Assembly: GCA_938023035.1 (NCBI GenBank)
Contig: CALIDI010000017.1
Span: 1 to 64,000 of the forward strand
From: an uncultured Leptolyngbyaceae cyanobacterium
GTDB lineage: Bacteria; Cyanobacteriota; Cyanobacteriia; Leptolyngbyales; Leptolyngbyaceae
DNA length: 64,000 nucleotides
Direction of reading: 5' to 3'
A program made the position numbers and the translations under genes. Under the pieces are notes generated by a model, which was not told the DNA's origin, did no database searches, and saw nothing but the letters and a program-made list of their open reading frames with translations. Below, in pieces: positions 11,888 through 27,782 of this stretch. Position 1 is the first letter of the stretch; every line of letters starts with the position of its first letter.

Positions 11888-12460
11888 TCACCTTGATGGA
11901 GCTGGAGGCAGGGCGACTGGGGGCTGCAACAGTTGGGCGAGATTCAGTAGAAAGATAGGTGGGTCAGCAGAGTTGGGAACCAGCAAACCTGCCACACAGT
12001 GGAGACTTCCAGATGTTTGGAAAGTGGTTGAGAGGGGGCGAAAAGCAGACTCTGGGATGCGGCGCAGGGTCGGTGGGTATTCCAAAGGCAGGCCCACACA
12101 TTCTCCCTGGTTACCGCTAACGAGTAAAAGATACCGCGCTGTCAGCGGCGTTGGTGCATCTGGCAAGGCATCTGCATGGGTTGAGGCTGGGGGAAGAGCC
12201 AATGAAGACGGGGGGTGCTCATGTCTAGAACCAAAAATGCGTGAGTGGAGGGCAATCACTGGAATTTCTTGCCCCTGTTCCATCACCAAGGCCACTTGGG
12301 AACCAGGTCGATTAGCATAGATTTGCTCTACCGCTATCACCCGCTGAACCACAGTGAGGGGCAGGGCAAACTGCTCGCCTTGCAAAACAAACAACAAAAT
12401 TGGTTGAGTCGGTTCAACGGGCTTGGTGCGCAACGCCCGCCGTGACAGAGGATGAGCCAT
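11888..12460 (-). CDS. CheW-domain adaptor, last gene of the pix-type cluster
   Basis: This is a CheW-like protein of 190 residues (ILLFVLQGEQFALPLTVVQRVIAV; VAGLLVPNSADPPIFLLNLAQLL at the end). It links receptors to the CheA kinase. The two halves of the domain are separated by a Pro/Ala-rich insertion (about residues 80-105). Its first 47 bases overlap the 3' end of the cheA gene in another frame, which suggests translational coupling. It is a second CheW for the cluster and may serve a different receptor or act as an antagonist. Confidence 0.85.
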   Translation of the reverse strand: MAHPLSRRALRTKPVEPTQPILLFVLQGEQFALPLTVVQRVIAVEQIYANRPGSQVALVMEQGQEIPVIALHSRIFGSRHEHPPSSLALPPASTHADALPDAPTPLTARYLLLVSGNQGECVGLPLEYPPTLRRIPESAFRPLSTTFQTSGSLHCVAGLLVPNSADPPIFLLNLAQLLQPPVALPPAPSR

Positions 12461-15344
12461 AAAGATGTTCTGCTAAATGGGTAAGAAGGTCGCGCTCGTG
12501 GTAGGGCTTAGAAAAATAGGCGCTGGCCCCCAAGCTCAAGGCCAACTGGCGGTGTTTGGCACTGGTGCGAGAGGTTAGCATTGTCACTGGTAGATGGGCC
12601 AATGTGGGGGTTGCTTTTACCCGGGCCAGAAAGCCGTAGCCATCCAGTCGGGGCATTTCAATATCGCAAATCACCGCATTGACCTGTACCCCCCTTTGCA
12701 GCTTTTCGAGTGCTTCCTGGCCATCCTTGGCCTGCTCCACCTGATAGCCAGCCTTTTCTAGGGTAAGGGCCAGAAAGCGGCGGACATTGATGGAGTCATC
12801 AACGACAAGAACCGTAGCCGTGGGTAAAGGCCCAGCGACCTCTAGCAAGGCAGGCCCCGCTGACGGAGTCGCAGGAGATGGGGGATGGGCGGCCCCACTG
12901 GCTTCGAGGCTGGCAATCCAATGCAGCAGTTCTGCTATGTTGACTAGGGGCACAACCCGACCGTCCCCCAGAATTGTACAGTTGCTAAAGCCCGGTGGCA
13001 GTGGAATCGTGCCGTTTACCCGGCGCACGGCGACTTCTTGTTCTCCCCAACAACAATCGAGTTGCAGGGCGACCAACTGGTGGTTGTGTTCAACCAGCAG
13101 TACGGTTTCTGTGGCAATCGTGGGCGGGGTTTCTAATCGGTAGGGCACTGTGGGGCGATGCACCGTGAGCCAGTCCGATAGGCGGATGAACTGCACCAGG
13201 GTGCCCTGCAAGTTGAGCATCTCCCTGCCGGCGGTTTGGAGCAGGTCGTCGGGCTGGAGGGCAAGAATTTCACTGATCGCGTCATTCGGAATGGCTAATA
13301 GCAGGCCGTTACTTTCAACTAGGAGGACGCGCACCACGGATAGGGTGAAGGGCAGCGACAGGGTGAAGAGGGTGCCCTGGCCTGCTTTGGTCTCGACTTT
13401 AATGTCGCCCCTCGCCTGTTTCAGGCGATCGCGCACAATATCCATGCCAACACCGCGACCAGAGAGGGCAGTGACTTGATCCGTCGTGCTAAACCCCGGT
13501 TCAAAGATTAAAGACACCAGTTCGTCGTCACTGGCGGCGGCCAGTAAAACAGGGTCTAGGCCCATTTGCTCTGCCTTTGCCCGAATTTTAGCCAGGGGAA
13601 TGCCAGCCCCATCATCGCTCACGGTGATGATCGTGCGGTTGCCGCGATGCCCCGCATGAATTTGAATCACCCCTTCAGCAGCTTTGCCCTGGGCAATGCG
13701 GGTTTGGGGGTCTTCAATGCCGTGGTCAAAGGCATTGCGCAGCAGATGCAACAGCGGGTCATTAAGGGTTTCGAGGATGGTGCGATCAATAAGAGTATTG
13801 GCTCCGCTGACTTCAAGCCGCACTTGCTTGCCATGCTCCAGGCAAAGTTCGCGCAGGACACGGGGAAAGCGATCCACAATGTCGGAGAGCGGGCGCATCC
13901 GCACCTGGGTAAGGCGGTTTTGCAGTTGGCGGGCAGTTTTGCTGAGGCTGCGGCTGGTGTGCTCCACTTCTTCGAGACTAAAGTCAATATCGCTGGTAAC
14001 CTCTTGCACCTGCACAATAGTTTCCATCACTTCCTGAGAGAGCAGGTGCAAGGCACTGTAGCGATCCAGTTCCAGAGTGTCAAAGCTGGCAGTGGCCGGG
14101 GGGGAGGGAATAGCCGCCAGTTCCTCTGCTGGGGCAGTGCCGCCGGGCAGTAGCCGTTGAGCGCTAGAGGTGTGGGGTGTTCCGGCAATGCGGTCGTAGG
14201 TGGTGCGGAGAGCGGTGTTGGCTTGTTCTAGGGTGTGAACGCGCTGGCTCAGGAGGTGAGTCAAGCTGCGCAATCGTTTGAGGTAAAGTTCTAGGGCGTT
14301 GCGGTCAATAGTCAGTTCTCCAAACAGGTCGTTGAGCTGATTCAGTTGGCGCATGGAGACGCGCACGCTACTATCGGCTTCGGCTTCTTCTGCGGAAGCC
14401 GTTGCGGCGGTTGGCGTCGGGGGTACTGTTGGTCGCTGAGCGTGGGAAGGCGTTTGGGTATGCCGCTCAGGTGTGGTGGGAGTAACGAAAATTGGATGAA
14501 GCTCGTACGGGTCGGCTGCCGGTGGTTGCACGATCGCAGGAATAACCGGGGCCACAGTAGCAGCATCAGCCGACGGGTCAAAGTTGAGAAGGGCGTTGGG
14601 GAGCAAATCCCACTGCCCGGATAGAACCAGCGTTTGAGACTGTCGCCAGGTAGCAAGGGCCGCACGAGCCAAGGCTGCAATATCCGAAGTCCTTGCCCCC
14701 ATCTGAGCAATGGTGTGGGAGAGTTGGCTAAAGGCGCTAAGTTGTAGCATTTCCCCCAGGCCCTCTAACTCTTGAGCAAGAGTGACTAAACTTTCGCGCA
14801 GGTCAGAGGCCTCTGGCATGGCCAGTTTTTCCTCCAGGCCAGCAAGACCGGCCTCTACCTCCGTCTGAAACACAAGAGGAAGAATATCCTGCCCTTCATC
14901 AGTCGAAAGCACAGAACTGGCATCCTCCGCTGGCGGTTCTCCCAGGCGCTGGTATAACTGCTCAAACAAAGGGTTCACCGTTTCTTCCAACCAGGAAGAC
15001 GAGATCGGAAGCAATTGGCGATCGCAACGGATTACCTGGCGCAAACAATCCACCCCTGCCAGCAGCCATTGTTCCAGTTCAGCATCCACCGCCAGGGATT
15101 GCTTTTGAATCTTGAGCACCTTGAAAAAGTCCTCAATGCGATGGGCCAGAGCACTGAGGGTGTCATACCTCATCATGCCAGCCCCACCTTTAATCGAGTG
15201 AGCCGCACGTAAGGCCGCATTCACCTTTTGGGTATCAATTCCCCGGTCGGAGAGGCCCAACACAGCCTCATCCAGCGTTTGCAAATAGTCTTCCGCTTCA
15301 TCGAGAAACTGCTGTCGAATTTCGAGTTCCTTATCCTGTGACAT
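12414..15344 (-). CDS. pixL: Hybrid CheA-type histidine kinase (PixL-like)
   Basis: The 976 residues are organised as P1 phosphotransfer domain (AALRAAHSIKGGAGM, phospho-His49), a variable Pro/Ala-rich region (~250-330), dimerisation helices, a HATPase domain (N-box LLHLLRNAFDHGIED, G-boxes DDGAGIPLAKI and GRGVGMDIVRD), a CheW-like regulatory domain, and a C-terminal receiver (DDSINVRR; phospho-acceptor in VICDIEMPRLDGYGF; KPY). This is the layout of cyanobacterial PixL/TaxAY-type kinases that drive type IV pili in phototaxis. It lies after pixJ and overlaps a CheW gene. Confidence 0.92.
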   Translation of the reverse strand: MSQDKELEIRQQFLDEAEDYLQTLDEAVLGLSDRGIDTQKVNAALRAAHSIKGGAGMMRYDTLSALAHRIEDFFKVLKIQKQSLAVDAELEQWLLAGVDCLRQVIRCDRQLLPISSSWLEETVNPLFEQLYQRLGEPPAEDASSVLSTDEGQDILPLVFQTEVEAGLAGLEEKLAMPEASDLRESLVTLAQELEGLGEMLQLSAFSQLSHTIAQMGARTSDIAALARAALATWRQSQTLVLSGQWDLLPNALLNFDPSADAATVAPVIPAIVQPPAADPYELHPIFVTPTTPERHTQTPSHAQRPTVPPTPTAATASAEEAEADSSVRVSMRQLNQLNDLFGELTIDRNALELYLKRLRSLTHLLSQRVHTLEQANTALRTTYDRIAGTPHTSSAQRLLPGGTAPAEELAAIPSPPATASFDTLELDRYSALHLLSQEVMETIVQVQEVTSDIDFSLEEVEHTSRSLSKTARQLQNRLTQVRMRPLSDIVDRFPRVLRELCLEHGKQVRLEVSGANTLIDRTILETLNDPLLHLLRNAFDHGIEDPQTRIAQGKAAEGVIQIHAGHRGNRTIITVSDDGAGIPLAKIRAKAEQMGLDPVLLAAASDDELVSLIFEPGFSTTDQVTALSGRGVGMDIVRDRLKQARGDIKVETKAGQGTLFTLSLPFTLSVVRVLLVESNGLLLAIPNDAISEILALQPDDLLQTAGREMLNLQGTLVQFIRLSDWLTVHRPTVPYRLETPPTIATETVLLVEHNHQLVALQLDCCWGEQEVAVRRVNGTIPLPPGFSNCTILGDGRVVPLVNIAELLHWIASLEASGAAHPPSPATPSAGPALLEVAGPLPTATVLVVDDSINVRRFLALTLEKAGYQVEQAKDGQEALEKLQRGVQVNAVICDIEMPRLDGYGFLARVKATPTLAHLPVTMLTSRTSAKHRQLALSLGASAYFSKPYHERDLLTHLAEHLYGSSSVTAGVAHQAR

Positions 15345-15651
15345 GGTGTTTTGTCAGTAGTGAGTAGGGGATAGCAACGGCCAAACTAGTAAGAACGAGA
15401 TGCGGAAAGCTTGGAGCACTTGTGAGTGATGAGTTGCGCGGGATGGAAATGTTCAACCCTGTTGTCAAGTAACTAAACGCAATTCAATTGCAGTTGACTT
15501 TAGAGGTAGAGGAGGTAGCCCCCCTGTCTGGGGGCACCACCTTCACTCCTCCCTGCTGACAGTGAATGAGGACTATCTACCGACGCCAATCGATAGGTAT
15601 GAGCTTAGAGGAGCAGAGCCGATCCACCGCTGCTCCCATACCCTTGGATGC
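15345..15651. other. Gap between pixJ and pixL with a family 3 palindrome
   Basis: No gene is seen. Positions 15507-15562 hold a G/C-rich palindromic repeat (GAGGTAGAGGAGGTAGCCCC, then CTGTCTGGGGG) related to those at 22578-22640 and 56404-56458. Confidence 0.55.
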
Positions 15652-18600
15652 TTAGACCTCCGCACCGACCTTAAACGCTCCTACCGATGCCTGCAAATCC
15701 TGAGCCACCCGCACCGTCTCCCGCAGAGAGTCTGATACTTGGCGAGAAGACTGAGAAGTGCGTTCAGACACGGCTGCCACCTGTTGCATCAACTGCGCAA
15801 CCGATGCGGAGGTAGCCGCCTGAGACACAGTCGCCGTAGAAATCGATTGCACCAACTGATCAATTTGCTGAGAGACCTCTAGAATCTGGCTCAGACTACG
15901 CTTGGCATCGTCTACCAGATGAGTACCCTCCACCACTTGGGCTGTGCTCTGCTCCATCGCCTCGACCACCTCACTAGTTTCCCGCTGAATCGCCTCGACA
16001 ATTTTCTCAATCTCCTGGGTGGCGGCAGCCGATCGCGTCGCCAGTTCACCCACTTCTTCTGCCACCACGGCAAAGCCTTGGCCTTCCTCCCCAGCACGAG
16101 CGGCCTCAATTCCTGCATTAATCGCCAGCAGATTCGTTTGCATGGCGATTTGGTTAATTAAGGAGACCACCTTCGAGATTTGTTGAGACGATTCACCTAA
16201 GCGTTTTACCTTCTTAGCCGTTTCACCTACTGTTTCTCTGAGGCTAAGGATGTTGTGCACCGTGCGGTCAATTGCCGCGCCCCCAGCAGCAGCAGTCGTG
16301 GAGGCGTGGCGAGCCACCTGGGCGGCCTGCTGAGCGCTTTCTGCCACCGCTGCGATCGAACGAGTCATTTGCTCCACTGAGTCGAGGGTACGGGTGGTTT
16401 CTTCCGCCTGCCGCAGGGCTTCTTCCGCCAGTTGGCGCATCGCTTCCTCATTTTTCCCTAGGGAGGCGTTGACCTGAGTGGCAGAGGCTTTCACCTGGGT
16501 AACAATCTGGCGCAAGCTTTCGACAATCGCGTTAAAGAAGTCGGCAACAGTGCCAATATCGGCGGCAGTAACATCAGCTCGCACGGTCAGGTCGCCCTGG
16601 GCAACTCCTTCCACATCCTTAAGCAACTCCACTAACTGCATCTGGAGCGATTCTTTTTGCAGCCGTTGCTCTTGGGAAATGGCTTCTGCTTGTAACCGGG
16701 CTTTTTCCCGCTCTTCAAATAAATCAGATTGCTCCAGGGCAAAGGTCAGTTGAGTGGCCACCTGGCTTACCAGTCCGACTTCTTCTTCTTGCCAAGCCCG
16801 TGGCCCAGCACACTGATGCACTGAGATTAGACCAATGAGATCCCCCTGGCGCAAGATGGGGGCGACGATACTGGCGCGAATTTCAAAGTTTTCTAGAATA
16901 TCGCGATGACAATCAGCGATCGCTTCTTGACTCACATCGGCCATAACCCGCACACGACCATTTCGGTATTCCTCAGTCAAGCCTTCGCGAAACGGATCGG
17001 ACACAACTTGATGCAAAATCCGCCGCCACCCGCTGGCCACCGACTCTGCAGTGATAGTGCCGCTCCAGTCAGGGTTGAACTCATAAATCACAACGCGATC
17101 CGCCTTAAGGGCGTAGCGCAATTTATCCACCGTGGCATGGAAAATGTCTTCCCGCCGGAGGGATTGCCGCATCCCCGCCATGATTTCTTTGAGTTGGTAA
17201 GCTTGCTCAGCGTTGCGCTTTTGCTTTTGAAACAAACTGGCTTGTTCCAGGGCAAAACCTAATTGAATCGCAATCTGGCGCATGAAGTTTATATCTAAAT
17301 CACTCCATTCGCGGGGGGCGTCGCATTGATGGGCCACAAATAAACCCTTTAAGCGACCCTCCACTAGAATCGGAGCAACCAAATTGGCTTTCACTTCAAA
17401 AGGTTTGAGCTGCATCAGGTGACAATCGGTCAAGCCCGCTGCCAGAATGTTGTTAGTGGCCTGTACTCGCCCTTGCCGATACTTCTCCACATAGCCTTCG
17501 GCAAAGCAGGGGTCAGCAATTTGGGCACCTAGAGCGACGGGGAAGCGCCGTTCAACCGATTCAGCAACGATTCGGCCCGCCCAGTTTTGATCAAACAAGT
17601 AAACGAGCACGCGATCGCTCTCCAGAGCCGACCGGGTTTCTCTTACCGCAACCTGAAGGATACTGTCTTCATCAGAGCACTCCCGCATCCGCGCCACGAT
17701 CGCCCCCTGCTGACGTTCCCGTAGAGCCGTATCACTCTGTTGCTTGAGCAAAGCCGCTTGGCTCAGGGCATAGCCAATCTGAGTCGAGAGCTGTTGAATT
17801 AACTCAATATCGGCCTGCTCCCAATAGCGTGGCCCGCGACACTGATGAGCACAGAGCAAGCCGATTAAATCATCACCGACCAAAATCGGCGCAACAATGT
17901 TTGCCTTCACTTCCAGACGTTCTAAAATCTCACAATGGCACTGGGAGAGGTTTGCGGTCTCCAGATTTTCCACCATCGTGACGCGCCCCAATTTGTAGCG
18001 GGCCACTGAGTCGGGGAGGAGTGGGTCATGAATGACTTGCCCCAGGGCGCGACCCCATCCCTCTCCCACCGATTCTGCCGTTACCTCCCCACTCTTAAAA
18101 TCGGGGTTAAACCGATAAATCACCGCGCGATCCACCTCTAAGACCTGTCGTACTCCGTCAACCGATGTGCGCAAGATTGTATCGAAATCAAGCGTTTGCC
18201 GAATGTTTGAGGTCAGGTCGGCTACGAGTCTGGCCCGTTTGGCTTGGGCCGCCTGGGTTCTTTGCAAATGTTGGATCTGCTCGGCCATCTGGTTGATGGT
18301 GTTGCCCAGGGTGGCCATTTCATCCTCTCCCTGTACAACCAAGCGGGTATCTAAATCGCCACGAGTAATTTGTTGCACCAGTTGGGTGGTCTTGACTAAT
18401 GAGCGGGTGGCGCGATTGGCCCACCACACTGCGATCGCGCCTGAAAGCACCGTCATCAGCCCACCCCCTAGGATCCCTTGCATCCACAGCGATCGCTGCG
18501 GTGCCAAAGCCATCTGGGTATCTTTGCCCAAAATCACCCCCCACTGTAGATTCGGTAGCCCTTCGCGGCGAGGGATGGGGGCATAGCTCAGCAACTGCGC

Positions 18601-19497
18601 TGGTTGATCCGCAGAACGATTGGTCTCGAAAATACCGCTGACTTGAGCCGTAAATAGTGGCTCTAGTTGAGGAAAAGCCTCCTGAGCCGAGCGACCGATT
18701 TGCTCCTTCTCCTCCGCAATAAAAACCTGACCTGACTCATCAATGACTTGGTAACGAGCACCTTGACTATCATTGGCTTGCAACAAACTTTCTAAAACGC
18801 TGGCGGGCATACTGGCCCGCACGACTTTAGTGACCCGGTCTGAATCCGGCTCCTGCACCGGAGCAAACAGGTAGATTTTCGTCGTACCATCCGTTGCAGA
18901 ACTGGGTTGGCTAATCAGCGGTTGTTTACGCTTCACCACTTGCTGAAACACGGCGTTATCACGCTGATTCGGCAATGACTGGGTACCCGTTTGCAGAATT
19001 GGAGCACCATTGGCATTAAAAACAGCAATATTGTCATAGGCCTGCGTTGCCAGCATCAATTGCTTCAGCACCGCCTGCTGCTCTGCGTTACTCATACTGC
19101 TGCGTAGCCGTGGGTTCGTTAAGATTGGCAAATTGGCCAGCCCTTGAATATCTCGATAGCGCTCAGCCATAAACTGATGCAGCCCTTTAGCCAATTGCTC
19201 TGTATTCTGCTGTTGCGTAGCGAAGGTCTGTTGTTTCACGGCCTGTTGGGCTGTGGTGTAAACGATGCCACTAGCAACGATTAACGGTAAGGTTCCCAGA
19301 GCCAAGGCCGACAGGGCTGCTTTTTGTCGTATCCCCATCGACTTGAATTGGGCTGTTTGCTGAGTCGTGTCTGTTCCATGGGTGCTCCCAGCAGGGGGTT
19401 GCTCAGCAACCATGCGAGACGAGGTGCTCTCTGTACCGTTGTTCAAGGCTGAGTTCCAGTTCGGAATATTTTTGACAGGCTTGGTGCGGTTAACCAT
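15652..19497 (-). CDS. pixJ: Methyl-accepting phototaxis receptor with three bilin-type GAF domains (PixJ-like)
   Basis: Order of parts: membrane helix ~58-82, periplasmic Cache-like sensor ~85-335, second helix ~338-360, HAMP ~360-412, GAF1 ~425-580, GAF2 ~600-752, GAF3 ~775-923, second HAMP ~950-1000 and an MCP signalling domain (hairpin tip [17 protein letters not shown]). Each GAF has the Cys-His pair that anchors a bilin in cyanobacteriochromes: Cys520-His521, Cys692-His693, Cys863-His864. Only GAF2 also has the DxCF motif (DPCF, Cys664) of blue/green DXCF photoreceptors. Synechocystis PixJ has two GAFs of which one binds bilin. AAAGGATTCCCACC precedes the ATG. The receptor should report light to the kinase PixL through CheW proteins. 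Confidence 0.93.
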
Positions 19498-19613
19498 GGT
19501 GGGAATCCTTTCTAAGTATGGGTGAGGGAAACATCAATTCAGCAGTGGAAAAGTGACCGCAACGATGGGGGAGGCGGCCAGTCGGGGGCAGGGGCATGTT
19601 CAATCCGTGAAAG

Positions 19614-20111
19614 CTAATCACCATGTAAGATTTGAGATTGAGCGATCGCAGCAATATCTAGAACAAGCCCTACTTGCTGAGACTGCACCCAGCAACCCTG
19701 GAGGTAAGGCAATAAATCAGGAGCAACCTGTCCCGGAGCCGGCTGAATCACTTCTGGCTGTAGCCAAACAATTTCTTCTACCTGGTGTACGGCTAGGGCT
19801 AGCAGCATCTTGCCTACCTGCACAATGGCAGTATTGTGTTGTTGTAGGTTTGCTGGCAGCACTCTCAACCCCAGCATTCTCGCCAAGTCAACGACCCAAA
19901 CCACCTGTCCACGTCGATTAGTTAACCCTAACAGGCAGGCAGGCTTATTGGGCATGGGTGTTAATTGCTGCATCGGCAGCACCATCACCTCCTGAACATG
20001 TCGCATGCCCAGAGCCGCCACAATTTGGGATGTTAACCGAACTTTGAGATAGGGGTCTCCCTGGATCTTTTGCGATCGCAGACCATGCGTAACAATAGCG
20101 GAGGAATGCAT
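19614..20111 (-). CDS. pixI: CheW-domain adaptor (PixI-like)
   Basis: This is a 165-residue CheW protein (LKVRLTSQIVAALGMRHVQEV; GLTNRRGQVVWVVDLARMLGL). It couples PixJ to PixL. The frame is open 15 codons further upstream into the neighbouring receiver gene, but the ATG at 20111 starts where the fold begins and lies just 4 bases after the pixH stop, so I use it. pixJ follows 116 bases downstream. Confidence 0.88.
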   Translation of the reverse strand: MHSSAIVTHGLRSQKIQGDPYLKVRLTSQIVAALGMRHVQEVMVLPMQQLTPMPNKPACLLGLTNRRGQVVWVVDLARMLGLRVLPANLQQHNTAIVQVGKMLLALAVHQVEEIVWLQPEVIQPAPGQVAPDLLPYLQGCWVQSQQVGLVLDIAAIAQSQILHGD

Positions 20112-20115
20112 TAGA

Positions 20116-20493
20116 TTAACCCATAACAGATTGAACAACTGTAAGTAACTGCTCACGAGTAAATGGTTTCGTCAGGTAAGCACTAGCTCCCTGCCGCATC
20201 GCCCAAAATCGATCAATGTCTTGATTTTTAGAAGTACAAATAATAATCGGCACAGTTTCTAACCCAGGTTCTTTTTTGACACTACGACATAGTTCAAAGC
20301 CACTCATGCCTGGCATTACCACATCAGTGATAATTACATCTGGTCTACATTCACTCACTTTTTTAAGTGCTTCCTTTGCACTAATAGCACTAATAACCGA
20401 ATAGCCGCTCTCTTGCAGATAATGACTAATCAGCCGCATCTCAGAGAGGGTATCCTCAACAACCAAAATGGTCGTCATCAGAGTAATGCTCAT
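20116..20493 (-). CDS. pixH: CheY-like response regulator (PixH-like)
   Basis: This single receiver domain has acidic pair ED after ILVV, phospho-acceptor Asp in VIITDVVMPGMSGFE, the conserved Thr in IICTSKN and Lys in YLTKPF. PixH/PilH-type regulators oppose or modulate pilus extension. GAGGAAACTCGAAA gives a good ribosome-binding site before the ATG. It is followed immediately by pixI. Confidence 0.9.
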   Translation of the reverse strand: MSITLMTTILVVEDTLSEMRLISHYLQESGYSVISAISAKEALKKVSECRPDVIITDVVMPGMSGFELCRSVKKEPGLETVPIIICTSKNQDIDRFWAMRQGASAYLTKPFTREQLLTVVQSVMG

Positions 20494-20927: not shown

Positions 20928-22022
20928 TTAAGTCAGGTGCTTAAAGACCGTCTTCAGCAGTTCAGACTGGGTAAAGGGCTTCGTCAAGTAACTCGATGCC
21001 CCAACCAGCCGCGCCTTAGCCCGGTCAATAAAGCCTGTATTACCTGTCACCATGACCACCGGGGTATTCTTAAAGCTAGGATGTCGTCGCAACAAAGAGC
21101 AGAGTTCATAGCCATCCAGATTTGGCATGGTGACATCCAGCAAAATCAAATCTGGCTTACTCCGAACAATTTGCATCAGTGCCTTGACCGGATCATTGAT
21201 CATGACCACAGAAAACATCGCATCGTCTAAAAATGTACTGATAGAACGGAGAACCGTTGGACTATCATCAATACAAACGACTGTATAATGCTGCTTAGAC
21301 AACTTTGTCAGCGGTGGGCGCATTGACTCATCAGACGGATGCCCGGTTGAACCTGGAACGACCGAAGATGGACGACGAGCATTACCCGACTGGAATGAGT
21401 CAGTGGGTTGTGGCTGGGTAAATCGCCCACGATCAGGGGCAATTGGGTTAAGGGGCGATCGCTTCGGGCGATCGCTTTCCTCCTGCAATGTTTGACTCTG
21501 AACCTGCTGCTGACACTGATCAACCAGACGGGGCAGATCAAATCGTCCCAGATTCAGCCATTGATCAAAATATTCTCGCTCAATTTGCTCATAGCTACCG
21601 CGATTCACCGCCAAAAAACTGGTAATGACTTCTTTCGCGATCGCCTCAATTAAAGAAGCCGCTTGCTCTGATTGCAGGTATTGTTGCTCTACCAACCAGT
21701 AAATAGCACGAAAATCAGCTGATAGCGCCGTCTGATAGGCTTGTTGATTTTCAAACAGCAACCTGAGTTGTACTCGCACAGCACTGACCAAACTAGGAAC
21801 CTGACGACTCATTTGAGTCAAATGGCGATCCAGGCGCTCAAAGGGAGAACTCGAGTTGGAGGCATAGATCAAATCTCCTTCCTCCAGGTAAATTGACCAT
21901 ATCGTTGATCCTTCTGCAACCCTCAGACATCCCGTCATCTTACGACTTTTGAGCTGAGCCAATAGATTCAGAGGGTATAATCGCTGGGGAAATCGATAAT
22001 TGGACATTGAAGTAATGTTCAT
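20928..22022 (-). CDS. pixG: PatA/PixG-type response regulator
   Basis: The N-terminal ~190 residues form a PATAN/DUF4388-like domain (PLNLLAQLKSRKMTGCLRVAEGSTIWSI-type start; GDLIYASN). A Ser/Pro-rich linker (~195-240) precedes a C-terminal receiver (VVCIDDSPTVLRSI; LILLDVTMPNLDGYEL; VMVTGN; YLTKPF). This is the architecture of PatA (heterocyst pattern) and PixG/TaxP1 (phototaxis). Its place at the head of the pix-like cluster points to PixG. Confidence 0.88.
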   Translation of the reverse strand: MNITSMSNYRFPQRLYPLNLLAQLKSRKMTGCLRVAEGSTIWSIYLEEGDLIYASNSSSPFERLDRHLTQMSRQVPSLVSAVRVQLRLLFENQQAYQTALSADFRAIYWLVEQQYLQSEQAASLIEAIAKEVITSFLAVNRGSYEQIEREYFDQWLNLGRFDLPRLVDQCQQQVQSQTLQEESDRPKRSPLNPIAPDRGRFTQPQPTDSFQSGNARRPSSVVPGSTGHPSDESMRPPLTKLSKQHYTVVCIDDSPTVLRSISTFLDDAMFSVVMINDPVKALMQIVRSKPDLILLDVTMPNLDGYELCSLLRRHPSFKNTPVVMVTGNTGFIDRAKARLVGASSYLTKPFTQSELLKTVFKHLT

Positions 22023-22760: not shown

Positions 22761-25331
22761 CTAGCCAATACTTTTGAGAATCAGACGAATCTTATCCTTT
22801 TGCTGCTTTTCCAGCATTGGAGGAAAGGAAAGCTCCATAAGGACGCGGTGGCCTAAATCAGGCAAGACATCAATCTGCTTGAGTTCTGCGATCAGACTCA
22901 GGGGGGAAGCGTCATCCGGCTGACGAAAGACCAGTAAACTCAGGGAAGTGCGAGCAGGAACTAAGACATCGAGAGCCTCCGGATCGATTGCCTCCAACTC
23001 AAGCCGGAGATCCTTCAATCCCAATTCGGTAATAGTAGCGGGATAGGAAATCTCACCCCAGCCCTCGCAGAATAGGAAAGTAGAGAGACTAACCTGTTTC
23101 CGCACCTTGACCTTAGCCTCTGGGCGAAACTCCTGAAAAGCCCGTCTCAAACTAGCGGCAATAAACTTAAACGAATCAATGGGATTATCAGACTCCTGAC
23201 GGTTCTGTGAATACCATTCCTTCACATCCGAATAGATGACCAATGCTAAGTCATCTTGCTGGCTCTGAGTCAGATGTACAAACTGTAGCGCTACCTCAGC
23301 CTGTAATAACGGCGTCGCCTTTGCCCGGACAATGTGGGCATCAAGCAGCACCCGCGCACCATAATCCCCTACCAATTCCACCTGCACCTCATCCGGCACA
23401 TTTGGCCACTCCTCCAGCAAAACGAGCGCCCCCGACTCACTCACATTGCGGGTAATACCCGTCCAGGTTTGGTTGCCACTATGAAGCCTCACAGTCAACT
23501 GGCGCGGCAAGCGATGAGCATCCCGCAACTGGGGTTGCTCAAAGGCGACCAAGCACGCAGCCAAAAGCAAAAACAAATTGAACACATTCCACAGCGCATT
23601 AATCAGCACCGCCTGCGTATCCTGAGGACTAATCACTAACCAAAAGGGAATCGCAAGCAAAGATGCTGCCGCCAAAATACTGAGATATAGCAGATAGCGG
23701 ACACTGTCAAAATCAAAGCTGCGCTCGGTTACGGTTAGTCCCTTATCCGTTACATTAAACGACCCTAACTTCGGGTTGATTAATGCCAGCAGCGTTACAA
23801 TGCCCGCCTGAAAAGACATGGCAAACTCATAAATCTCATTCCAAAACGAAAAGCGCACATGCTTATAGGGAATATGATTCGTCTGCATTGACAGCAAAAT
23901 ATGGGGCAGTGCATAAAATAGCGTTTCTACCCCTAAGCCCCGCACCGATGAAATTCCCAATAGCATATAGACCATCGGCGCGATCACATACATCAGCCGG
24001 GGAAAGCCAAAGAAAAAATGGGACGTGGCACTGAAATAGCAGAGGCGCTGCGGTAGGGTGAGTTTGAGTTTGCGGTTAAATAAGGGGTTTTCTAAGCGCA
24101 GGATTTGGGCCATCCCCCTAGCCCAACGAACCTGCTGCCCCACATAAGAAGAAAACTTCTCCGGAGCTAGGCCCGCCACCATAATTTTGTCGTAGTAGAC
24201 CGACTCATATCCGAGGGAGTGCAACCGCAATGCTGTGTGGCAATCCTCGGTTACGGTTTCAGTGGCAATTCCACCAATTTGGCGGACATAATCGCGCCGG
24301 ATAATTGCAGCAGAACCGCAAAAGAAGGCTGCATTCCAGGTGTCGTTACCCTTTTGCAACACTTTGTAGAACAGCTCATTGCCCACAGGCACCCGGCCAC
24401 CGGTAAGCAAGTTCCGCTCAAACGGATCTGGGTTATAAAACCAATGGGGTGTCTGTACTAGCGCCACCTTTGGGTTGGTAAAGAAACCCACGGTTTCTTC
24501 AAGGATGCACCGCGCTGGGATGTGATCACAATCCAGAATCAAGACTAAATCGCCTTCTGTTTTTTCCAGCGCAGTGTTGATGTTGCCTGCTTTGGCATGA
24601 AGGTTATCCTCACGCACCAAAAGGGTGCAGCCGAGTTCCTCACACATCGCCTGGAGGCGTTGGCGGCGTTCAGGGTACTTGCGGCCATCATCTAAGATGT
24701 AAACTCGCTTTTTACCCGCGGGATAGTTAATAGCCAGTGCTGCCAGAGCGGTTTTGCGTACAATCGCCACATCCTCGTTATAGGTGGGGATGTAGACATC
24801 CACGTTTAACCATGCTTCCGGTGGCTGGTGCGATAAATCAATCGAGTGTCGTTCTCGTATCCGCAAAGTTTGAAAGTAGGCTAGAAATAGGGTGCCAATG
24901 GCATACAGTTCGGCGGCATATAGTAGTATGCAAAAGCAACTATTCAACCAGTTTTCCAAGGATAGGGTGTAAGAGGTTCGGTAGTACCAATAGCGCAGCG
25001 TCGTGAGTGTACTCAGACTGACTAATAGCAGATGAATGCGTTCACTCATGGCCGTATCTCGCTGGCCTTCTTCTAACCGCACTAACCAGTTGCCAAATAG
25101 AATGACAAGCAGAGCGACGATGCCCTGTTGCCAGATGGCAGGACGTAGGGTTAGCAGGGGCACGGCCAACCACCCTAAACACCCCCATAGGAGTAACTGT
25201 ATGAATACCGGCGACTGCGCTAGGGGTTCAAACATTGGGGGCAACTGATCTATTAAGCCCATCATCCACTCTGCGGGTTGATGCCGCCAGTGACGAAACC
25301 GAGGGGGAAGGGAAAGAGATGAACGAGCCAT
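22761..25331 (-). CDS. bcsA: Cellulose synthase catalytic subunit BcsA (UDP-forming), with PilZ domain
   Basis: This family 2 processive glycosyltransferase makes beta-1,4-glucan from UDP-glucose in the inner membrane. Visible motifs are IPTYNED, DD at 214-215, DCD at 267-269, FFCGS at 337-340, TED at 361-363 and QQVRW at 399-403, with several membrane helices before and after. The C-terminal PilZ domain has the RxxxR-type start (AHRLPRQLTV) and NVSESGA, so c-di-GMP should activate it. It follows bcsB directly (stop and start adjoin as TAAATG, with AGGAGAAG before it). No bcsC, bcsZ or wss genes are present. Confidence 0.93.
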   Translation of the reverse strand: MARSSLSLPPRFRHWRHQPAEWMMGLIDQLPPMFEPLAQSPVFIQLLLWGCLGWLAVPLLTLRPAIWQQGIVALLVILFGNWLVRLEEGQRDTAMSERIHLLLVSLSTLTTLRYWYYRTSYTLSLENWLNSCFCILLYAAELYAIGTLFLAYFQTLRIRERHSIDLSHQPPEAWLNVDVYIPTYNEDVAIVRKTALAALAINYPAGKKRVYILDDGRKYPERRQRLQAMCEELGCTLLVREDNLHAKAGNINTALEKTEGDLVLILDCDHIPARCILEETVGFFTNPKVALVQTPHWFYNPDPFERNLLTGGRVPVGNELFYKVLQKGNDTWNAAFFCGSAAIIRRDYVRQIGGIATETVTEDCHTALRLHSLGYESVYYDKIMVAGLAPEKFSSYVGQQVRWARGMAQILRLENPLFNRKLKLTLPQRLCYFSATSHFFFGFPRLMYVIAPMVYMLLGISSVRGLGVETLFYALPHILLSMQTNHIPYKHVRFSFWNEIYEFAMSFQAGIVTLLALINPKLGSFNVTDKGLTVTERSFDFDSVRYLLYLSILAAASLLAIPFWLVISPQDTQAVLINALWNVFNLFLLLAACLVAFEQPQLRDAHRLPRQLTVRLHSGNQTWTGITRNVSESGALVLLEEWPNVPDEVQVELVGDYGARVLLDAHIVRAKATPLLQAEVALQFVHLTQSQQDDLALVIYSDVKEWYSQNRQESDNPIDSFKFIAASLRRAFQEFRPEAKVKVRKQVSLSTFLFCEGWGEISYPATITELGLKDLRLELEAIDPEALDVLVPARTSLSLLVFRQPDDASPLSLIAELKQIDVLPDLGHRVLMELSFPPMLEKQQKDKIRLILKSIG

Positions 25332-27782
25332 TTACTTCTCCTGGGATTTGTCCAGCGCGGTATAGCGGTTTAGGCTAGCTTGGGCGATGCCATACAGCAG
25401 TAACCCCAGGGTCAGCATGCCAGGAATTAACAGAAACCAGTTGCCCCCCAAAAATTGCCAGGTGCGTTCTTGCCATGGGGTTTCACTCAATCGGCGATGG
25501 TGTTTTGCTTGTTGCAGAAATTCCAGTGTGTAGTTGGGTGCCCCTTCTGCTATTGGCTGGGTCGAAGTTTGACTAATCAGCACTGTGTCTTCTCGCAGTT
25601 GATAAAACAGCGAATCTTGAATGAAAACGTCCTGGAGGTTTTGTAGGCCCGTGGCTGTTTGCGCAGTCAACAGCAACAGCAGGCGATCGCGATTCCAGGG
25701 AGAAACGATTTGCTTCACGACCCCTTCTACATCTGGCAGGGTGCGAATGGTAGCCTGATCGCGACGACGCTCAAACAGGGAGCGGAGGGTAAAGCCTTCG
25801 GCTTGCAGCCCGTCGGGTAAAGGAAATTGGGAAGCTGTCCCAATCGCAACTAAATGTCGCTCATCGCGTACAACCGTGGGCAACTGCTGAGCGCGATAAA
25901 CATCGAGCTTGACGGATTCAGCACGACTCACTCGGCCCAATCGTTCACTAAAGGTGAGTAAAACCAGCAAATCTGCCGGGCTGGGGGAATCAGGTACGAC
26001 CAATGCCAGTTGGGATAAATCTTGCGGAGCCGTAAACGGATAGCCCGTTTGCAACAGTTTGAGATCGGGCACGCGAGCGATATTTTCTCGCTTTAGTTCA
26101 AAGCGACTACTAGCATGAACCGTACCCCATAGGTGTTGGTCTACCGGTCGATTGCAGGAGCGCCGCTCTCTAGGATCCAGTTGAAACCGCACCTGGATTT
26201 TGGAGTTGGGTTTGATTTTATCAGCGGGAAGTTCGACCCGCAGGTTTGCCTGCCGTGCCCCATCAACGGCATCCAGTTTGCGCCCTGCTAGGGGTAGACC
26301 ATCCAGCTGTACTTCTAGCAAGGAGGTGAGGGGATTCAACTGAGGGCCATAGCTGTAGCGCAGATGCAGCACATTCCCTGAAAGAAAGTGATCGTCGGGC
26401 AGGGCACGAAAGTCAAATTCAATTGGCGGGGCATCGGAGCCACGCGTGGTCACATCGGGAAAGGGAGTATCTCCGTGGGTTTTCAAATCCCTCAATTCAA
26501 ACTCATTATTGGTGGGGAGATAGCCGGGCCACTCGCGGATCGGTGGGGTTGGCACATCCGATATCTGCTTGACCAGGATCGTTTGACCGCTGCCAATCTG
26601 CCGATCGCGGCGCTGGAGCAAAAACTGCACCGCTTTGCTAACCGCAGCAGGGGTATTGCCAGTAGCCACCAGGATAATGCCCTTTTGGTCGGCACTGGGT
26701 GCCAGCATCAGCACGCCTACATCATCTGGTAGTTTTTGGCGCTGTTCATCCAGCCAGCGATCGCCCTGAAGTTGGAGGGGCAGTTTCAGAGCCTTCAGTG
26801 CCGGTTGGGTTTGAGGCGTCCCAATGATCATCAAGCGCTCCCCTGCCTGCACTTGAGTAGGAGAGGATACCAGCCGAGTATTGAGCGGGCGAAACTGAGC
26901 CAGTCGGCCCAGCGCAGTGTGAAACCGGGTGGTAGCAGTTAACCAGGTTTCATCAATACGGCTCGGCAACAAGTACGCCACTTGATTTGGGTTGAGGCTC
27001 AATTCATCAAACAAGGGGAAAGGGTATTGGCTGAAATCGAGCCGAATCGGCTGGGGCTGGTAATCAAACACCAGCTTAGAGTCCGGCAAAAGTTCAGTCC
27101 ACAGAGAGGGGTCAAAGGGGTCTTGGGTGCAGGTAGGGGAGTTATTTTGCAGAGCCGCGACGACAACCTCGTTGTAATCTTGCAAAACATGAGACGGGAT
27201 CGAATACACGGCAGTACCGATTTTTCCTTCTTTTTGATTGAGCGGCACGCTCCCTACACTCACACCATTCACCAACACACTCAAGTTGGAGCGAGTGGCG
27301 TACAGAGCCGGAGAATGGCGAAACCGCAGGGCAATTTGACTCTTTTGAATCTGCCAATGCCGGGGGCGAGTAAACCGCAGCCGTGATTCGTCGTAGATGC
27401 CGCGCAGTTGCAAGCGACCACCAACCACCGGGCTACGATTAAACTCAACAATATACTGACCCGCAGCGAGGGGTTGCACCTGTTCGCTGGGGAGCACCTG
27501 TTTATCAGGGCTAGTAGGAGACTGCCGTGATTCTGGAATAGCTTCAGCAGGAGCAGCTTGTTGTCGATAATCAGGTAATTCGCTTTGGGCGATGGCCCGC
27601 CCACTCAGCAGCAAAGAACTGCCCCAGAATAGACTGAAACCGGCCAGAATCAGTGGAGGATAGCGACGCATCCGAATGGTGAGATGAACCGTAGACTTCT
27701 CTTGCATGATTAAACAGCAGAACCGCAAACAACAACTAACAACAAGCAATGCGTTACACACAACAGCAATAAAGATCTGCAC
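25332..27782 (-). CDS. bcsB: Cellulose synthase periplasmic subunit BcsB
   Basis: At 816 residues this matches BcsB, which guides the glucan across the periplasm. It has a signal region, two rounds of carbohydrate-binding and flavodoxin-like domains (GGRLQLRGIYDESRLRF; WTELLPDSKLVFDYQP; DQHLWGTVHASSRFEL) and a C-terminal membrane anchor (FLLIPGMLTLGLLLYGIAQ). The start is a GTG with a perfect AGGAG 8 bases upstream. It gives an N-terminus with two hydrophobic stretches, at residues 3-25 and 42-64; the second looks like the real signal peptide, so an internal ATG start (27671) remains possible. Confidence 0.9.
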   Translation of the reverse strand: MQIFIAVVCNALLVVSCCLRFCCLIMQEKSTVHLTIRMRRYPPLILAGFSLFWGSSLLLSGRAIAQSELPDYRQQAAPAEAIPESRQSPTSPDKQVLPSEQVQPLAAGQYIVEFNRSPVVGGRLQLRGIYDESRLRFTRPRHWQIQKSQIALRFRHSPALYATRSNLSVLVNGVSVGSVPLNQKEGKIGTAVYSIPSHVLQDYNEVVVAALQNNSPTCTQDPFDPSLWTELLPDSKLVFDYQPQPIRLDFSQYPFPLFDELSLNPNQVAYLLPSRIDETWLTATTRFHTALGRLAQFRPLNTRLVSSPTQVQAGERLMIIGTPQTQPALKALKLPLQLQGDRWLDEQRQKLPDDVGVLMLAPSADQKGIILVATGNTPAAVSKAVQFLLQRRDRQIGSGQTILVKQISDVPTPPIREWPGYLPTNNEFELRDLKTHGDTPFPDVTTRGSDAPPIEFDFRALPDDHFLSGNVLHLRYSYGPQLNPLTSLLEVQLDGLPLAGRKLDAVDGARQANLRVELPADKIKPNSKIQVRFQLDPRERRSCNRPVDQHLWGTVHASSRFELKRENIARVPDLKLLQTGYPFTAPQDLSQLALVVPDSPSPADLLVLLTFSERLGRVSRAESVKLDVYRAQQLPTVVRDERHLVAIGTASQFPLPDGLQAEGFTLRSLFERRRDQATIRTLPDVEGVVKQIVSPWNRDRLLLLLTAQTATGLQNLQDVFIQDSLFYQLREDTVLISQTSTQPIAEGAPNYTLEFLQQAKHHRRLSETPWQERTWQFLGGNWFLLIPGMLTLGLLLYGIAQASLNRYTALDKSQEK

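Follow-up and report, generated by a model that had tools for sequence, protein, structure and literature searches.

A PixJ-type phototaxis receptor with three candidate bilin-binding GAF domains of three lineages

The stretch of DNA analysed here (the window, 64,000 nucleotides from an uncultured Leptolyngbyaceae cyanobacterium) encodes a putative phototaxis receptor with three GAF domains in a row, and raises the question of how many of these hold a bilin and whether one short receptor might read more than one colour. The initial annotation had placed a Cys-His pair in each GAF, at residues 520-521, 692-693 and 863-864, and the second cysteine of the DXCF motif in GAF2 only (DPCF, Cys664), and had proposed that two or three colours might be read by a receptor whose Synechocystis counterpart binds bilin on a single GAF. 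We find the three pairs to be exact to the residue and the DXCF motif to be limited to GAF2, with GAF1 and GAF3 being one residue shorter at the motif and not just substituted. The Synechocystis comparison holds for PixJ1 (TaxD1), which has two GAFs with bilin on the second only, and for which a mutant phototaxis phenotype is known (PMC5812497). As for the idea of several colours, the sequence analysis partly supports it.

A pixJ-like gene within a pix cluster

The open reading frame starts with ATG and encodes a protein of 1281 residues, on which Pfam models identify, all above cut-off, three GAF stretches, a HAMP domain and, at residues 1060-1243, an MCPsignal domain. Together with the membrane helices read from the sequence this gives the PixJ layout of an N-terminal membrane part, HAMP, cyanobacteriochrome GAFs and a C-terminal MCP. 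Moreover, the gene lies inside an intact pixG-H-I-J-L (tax1) cluster, with pixG-, pixH- and pixI-like genes upstream and a pixL-like CheA gene followed by a second CheW gene downstream (Table 1), and in most relatives pixJ is flanked by the identical gene order. From its layout and gene context we assign the product as the PixJ photoreceptor of the pix/tax1 phototaxis system.

Table 1. Coordinates in the window of the receptor gene, its domains and motifs, and the neighbouring pix genes
Feature	Position	Strand	Remark
pixJ-like gene, 1281-aa receptor (membrane sensor part, HAMP, 3 GAF, MCP)	15652..19497	(-)	
HAMP domain (residues 360-409)	18271..18420	(-)	Pfam
GAF1 (type A: DPL, DXCF Cys deleted, [14 protein letters not shown])	17755..18222	(-)	
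GAF1 Asp491-Pro-Leu, site of missing DXCF cysteine	18019..18027	(-)	
GAF1 canonical Cys520-His521	17935..17940	(-)	
GAF1 extra Cys522 (CHC)	17932..17934	(-)	
GAF1 extra Cys549 (GLLC; strand position of AnPixJg2 Ala350)	17851..17853	(-)	in 42/42 relatives
GAF2 (type B, DXCF, TePixJ-like)	17239..17703	(-)	
GAF2 second cysteine Cys664 in DPCF	17506..17508	(-)	
GAF2 canonical Cys692-His693	17419..17424	(-)	
GAF3 (type C: DPFREG, DXCF Cys deleted, CHR[DE]IL, Ser at TePixJ Asn535)	16726..17190	(-)	
GAF3 Asp834-Pro-Phe, site of missing DXCF cysteine	16990..16998	(-)	
GAF3 canonical Cys863-His864	16906..16911	(-)	
MCP signalling domain	15769..16320	(-)	Pfam
pixG-like PATAN/DUF4388 + receiver	20928..22022	(-)	syntenic in relatives
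pixH-like receiver	20116..20493	(-)	
pixI-like CheW	19614..20156	(-)	
pixL-like CheA (Hpt-HATPase-CheW-receiver)	12414..15344	(-)	
Second, weaker CheW-like protein	11888..12460	(-)	

The genome encodes both PcyA and heme oxygenase, so that phycocyanobilin can be made, as well as type IV pilus ATPases of the PilB/PilT type. PixJ is the sole MCP detected in the assembly (95.9% complete), in which every CheW domain falls within this single cluster (11888-20051); a PilJ-like MCP was not found in the assembly, though most relatives searched have one. Directly upstream of pixG, at 22761-27782, are the cellulose synthase genes bcsA (with PilZ) and bcsB, and this linkage is seen again in many relatives (L037, L039, L045, L046, L052, L067, L073 and others), which hints that motility and cellulose are under joint control. 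Elsewhere in the same genome (C34; L114:2845-5520) a separate protein of 892 residues carries one GAF with EPCF in place of DPCF and one red/green-type GAF. In the pix-like clusters of several Nostocaceae and others (L086-L091, L093-L096 and L098) the MCP is without any GAF by the GAF model used.

Similar arrangements have been described. PixJ1 shares the pixGHIJL cluster and the order of GAF and MCP with our receptor, with two GAFs against three. PtxD (NpF2164) of Nostoc punctiforme, known here by description, is likewise an MCP phototaxis receptor in a che-like cluster, and of its seven GAFs at least six carry bilin and cover six colours (PMC5812497). For PixJ itself, between one and five GAFs have been recorded (PMC13383048; PMC8794177), including five in Synechococcus elongatus UTEX 3055, where PixJ is needed for phototaxis, and four in Phormidium lacuna (PMC8794177), both multi-GAF like the protein studied here, a likeness by description and not by sequence. 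A phototaxis receptor with several bilins is therefore not new as a phenomenon. Among the proteins that we collected, the five-GAF protein L009 and its kin carry red/green-type domains and not types A or C as defined below.

GAF types of PixJ-like proteins

By scanning named genomes and relatives we collected PixJ-like proteins from tens of species, and found that their GAFs sort into recurring types, namely type A (that of GAF1, DPL..P[DE][SA]..[15 protein letters not shown]), type B (GAF2, DPCF with CHL.QL) and type C (GAF3, DPFREG with CHR[DE]IL). Searches with the three GAFs of our receptor hit structures of bilin-bound cyanobacteriochromes, the best E-value being 8e-36 for GAF1, 3e-43 for GAF2 and 6e-34 for GAF3, and the motifs of these GAFs were found again in tens of species, showing that this is not a chance pattern. 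GAF2 has the DXCF cysteine as well as the canonical Cys-His of DXCF cyanobacteriochromes. Its closest solved relative is TePixJ (Thermosynechococcus PixJ, PDB 3VV4/4GLQ; phmmer E 3e-43), a member of the same family with which it shares both cysteines, the Asp and the His, and with which, as the blue/green reference, it clusters in the GAF tree (support 98/91). Very probably, then, GAF2 binds bilin and switches between blue and green. Whereas the solved bilin GAF of TePixJ is of the DXCF type, our receptor has two further GAFs that are not.

At the DXCF site GAF1 reads DPLLPDS and GAF3 DPFREGL, and the same one-residue shortening at the cysteine was observed in 42/42 type A and 9/9 type C domains, which rules out that the cysteine was merely mutated. 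Both domains keep the pocket Asp, the canonical Cys, the His and the later His, with GAF1 also retaining the Asn equivalent to TePixJ N535, and across relatives the Asp is present in 42/42 type A and 8/9 type C domains and the His553 equivalent in 42/42 and 9/9, respectively. The initial annotation had named the loss of further essential residues of the pocket in these two domains as grounds against its proposal, and the pocket residues above are kept and conserved. As type A was first labelled by its CHC motif, which is circular for Cys520 and Cys522, we counted retention of the canonical Cys by clade on a tree of 188 GAFs, where it is present in 45/45 type-A-clade GAFs of PixJ type (two of these being fragments with the MCP end cut off), and the five clade members without it all belong to non-PixJ proteins. 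The AlphaFold models of GAF1 and GAF3 (pLDDT 87.5 and 87.8) likewise have bilin-bound cyanobacteriochromes as their best structural matches. Identity to L033, the only compared relative with all three types, is 79% for GAF1, 69% for GAF2 and 74% for GAF3, and to L034, where type C is absent, 85% for GAF1 and 77% for GAF2; thus neither GAF1 nor GAF3 shows faster evolution than GAF2. Additional support comes from single-GAF PixJ proteins encoded in intact pix operons, five with type A alone (L061, L064, L065, L066 and L077) and one, in Microseira wollei (L059), with type C alone. Since a natural PixJ can have either as its sole GAF, both types are likely to be working photosensors, and together with the conservation and the retained pocket these receptors rule out that GAF1 and GAF3 are degenerate.

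In the GAF tree types A and C are well supported (100/98 and 100/97), their grouping as sisters is weak (88/41), and A, B, C and the DXCIP domains are separated from the red/green and NpR3784 lineages at 100/99. GAF1 and GAF3 are not DXCF cyanobacteriochromes, as they lack the DXCF cysteine, nor extended red/green (XRG) domains, as their WXDXXL motif has Ile or Val for Trp and they fall outside the XRG and NpR3784 side of the 100/99 split, and this split, with the motif, also rules out NpR3784 membership. An insert-Cys assignment fails on the loop, which is Cys-free and, compared with DXCF domains, short by one residue (the tree contains no insert-Cys sequences). DXCIP cyanobacteriochromes show the reverse of the GAF1 pattern, with the DXC cysteine retained and the canonical one absent (PMC6628166), and form a separate clade (100/99); a domain of the DXCIP pattern is the first GAF in some PixJ-type proteins (L019, L049, L062 and L072). 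The nearest solved sequence to both GAF1 and GAF3 is the dual-sensor histidine kinase PPHK (PDB 6OAP), which binds PCB with a Tyr replacing the DXCF Cys but, unlike GAF1 and GAF3, without a loop deletion, and which joins the NpR3784 lineage and not types A or C (100/99). By sequence, then, GAF1 and GAF3 represent two clades matching none of the six characterised domains in our reference set, and are uncharacterised relative to those six.

Type A domains have two extra cysteines, Cys522 and Cys549 (TePixJ positions 524 and 551), both present in 42/42, of which the first is part of the class definition and the second independent of it. Cys549 is equivalent to Ala350 of AnPixJg2, which lies on the same strand as Tyr352 and two residues ahead of it. 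We take Tyr352 to be a bilin contact, and the side chain of Cys549 would then probably lie on the pocket side. A text search for tandem-Cys cyanobacteriochromes returned no description in the literature covered here. The possibly new part of this receptor is the pair of GAF lineages with a deleted DXCF cysteine together with the two additional cysteines in every type A. In a five-GAF protein of another genome (L008, G031; C+C followed by three A-like GAFs) there is no DXCF cysteine anywhere, and the three A-like GAFs are without the type A extra cysteines and all have a new Cys where TePixJ has W499.

Module spacing and the reading of three bilins

Among multi-GAF receptors composed of A, B and C domains the GAF-to-GAF spacing is 172 residues from A to B (29/29) and from B to B (7/7), and 171 from B to C (4/4), type C being one residue shorter. 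The distance from the last GAF to the MCP tip is 240 residues, or exactly one or two heptads fewer (233, 226), irrespective of composition, and spacings differ in receptors with red/green-type or unclassified GAFs. This constancy agrees with modules that can be exchanged along a helical spine whose register is fixed. Compositions among relatives comprise A, B, C, A+B, A+B+B, A+B+C and A+B+B+C, where the last is read from a same-genus relative (G001) having A+B+B... and ...B+C at two contig ends, most simply a single gene. B+B tandems of DXCF GAFs, often near-identical, occur in several PixJ proteins (L034, L024, L026, L035, L085, L021 and L005) and suggest frequent module duplication.

Taken together, our analysis suggests that three bilin-competent GAFs of three lineages stand in a row and that several colours are combined at the MCP, a reading that we consider probable as a whole. 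GAF1 is quite likely to bind bilin and GAF3 likely as well, with a little less confidence, and bilin on all three GAFs at once is a reasonable expectation. Several observations count against it. The literature searched gave no spectroscopy for domains of either type A or type C; at the position of TePixJ Asn535, a Tyr in red/green domains, GAF3 has a Ser, and both GAF1 and GAF3 have an Ile in place of TePixJ Gln526 (for the role of N535 and Q526 see PMC6955287); and in the 188-GAF tree a few type-C-clade GAFs elsewhere, such as that of L017, are without the canonical Cys. Furthermore, a conserved Cys-His is no proof of photoconversion, some cyanobacteriochromes merely fluorescing (PMC11284453), and Synechocystis PixJ1, with its two GAFs and one bilin, demonstrates that a PixJ GAF can be bilin-free (PMC5812497). 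Along with the deletion in the bilin-side DXCF loop common to GAF1 and GAF3, this last example favours a receptor in which GAF2 is the only working photosensor and the other two are bilin-free or non-switching structural spacers of the helical spine. We regard this as unlikely, as type A keeps its Cys and Asp throughout PixJ, GAF1 is conserved to the same extent as GAF2, and a spacer as the sole GAF of several intact pix operons would mean a blind receptor.

GAF1 could also be a new kind of two-cysteine sensor, in which Cys549, on the strand beside the D ring, or Cys522 forms a second thioether and shifts absorption to the blue or violet. The invariance of both cysteines (that of Cys522 by definition) and the probable pocket side of Cys549 would agree with this, as would the emergence of second cysteines at several other sites, namely DXCF, insert-Cys and helix alpha3 (PMC5240096, PMC6628166). 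However, a Cys equivalent to position 551 is also found in 6/68 type B and 6/9 type C domains and may be a tolerated small residue, and Cys522, two residues after Cys520 in the Cys-His helix, may face away from the bilin, and we therefore hold this alternative to be improbable, more so than that of spacers. In its widest form, GAF1 and GAF3 would be undescribed lineages with a deleted DXCF cysteine, and Cys549 or Cys522 of the GAF1 lineage, as second thioether or redox switch, would amount to a new two-cysteine photocycle, a proposal that we likewise view as a long shot.

Proposed working of the receptor and its meaning

Returning to three bilin-competent GAFs, GAF2 would most likely carry phycoviolobilin, with Cys664 forming the second thioether reversibly, and switch between blue and green similar to TePixJ, and GAF1 and GAF3 would most likely carry phycocyanobilin or its isomer on one cysteine each (520 and 863). 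Having no second cysteine, the latter two most likely switch at longer wavelengths, in the range of green to red; we predict their colours no more finely than as probably of longer wavelength than the blue state of GAF2. Each isomerisation would twist the continuous helical spine, from GAF to GAF and into the MCP, so that the output of the MCP, and hence PixL kinase activity, may reflect the combination of colours, with PixG and PixH next acting on type IV pili.

Should bilin be bound by all three GAFs, a single short receptor would read several colours and pass a combined signal to the pili, in an organism in whose assembly no second MCP was seen. Moreover, the PixJ proteins of its relatives offer a natural composition series on helices of constant register, in which how several bilins combine becomes directly testable by module swaps.
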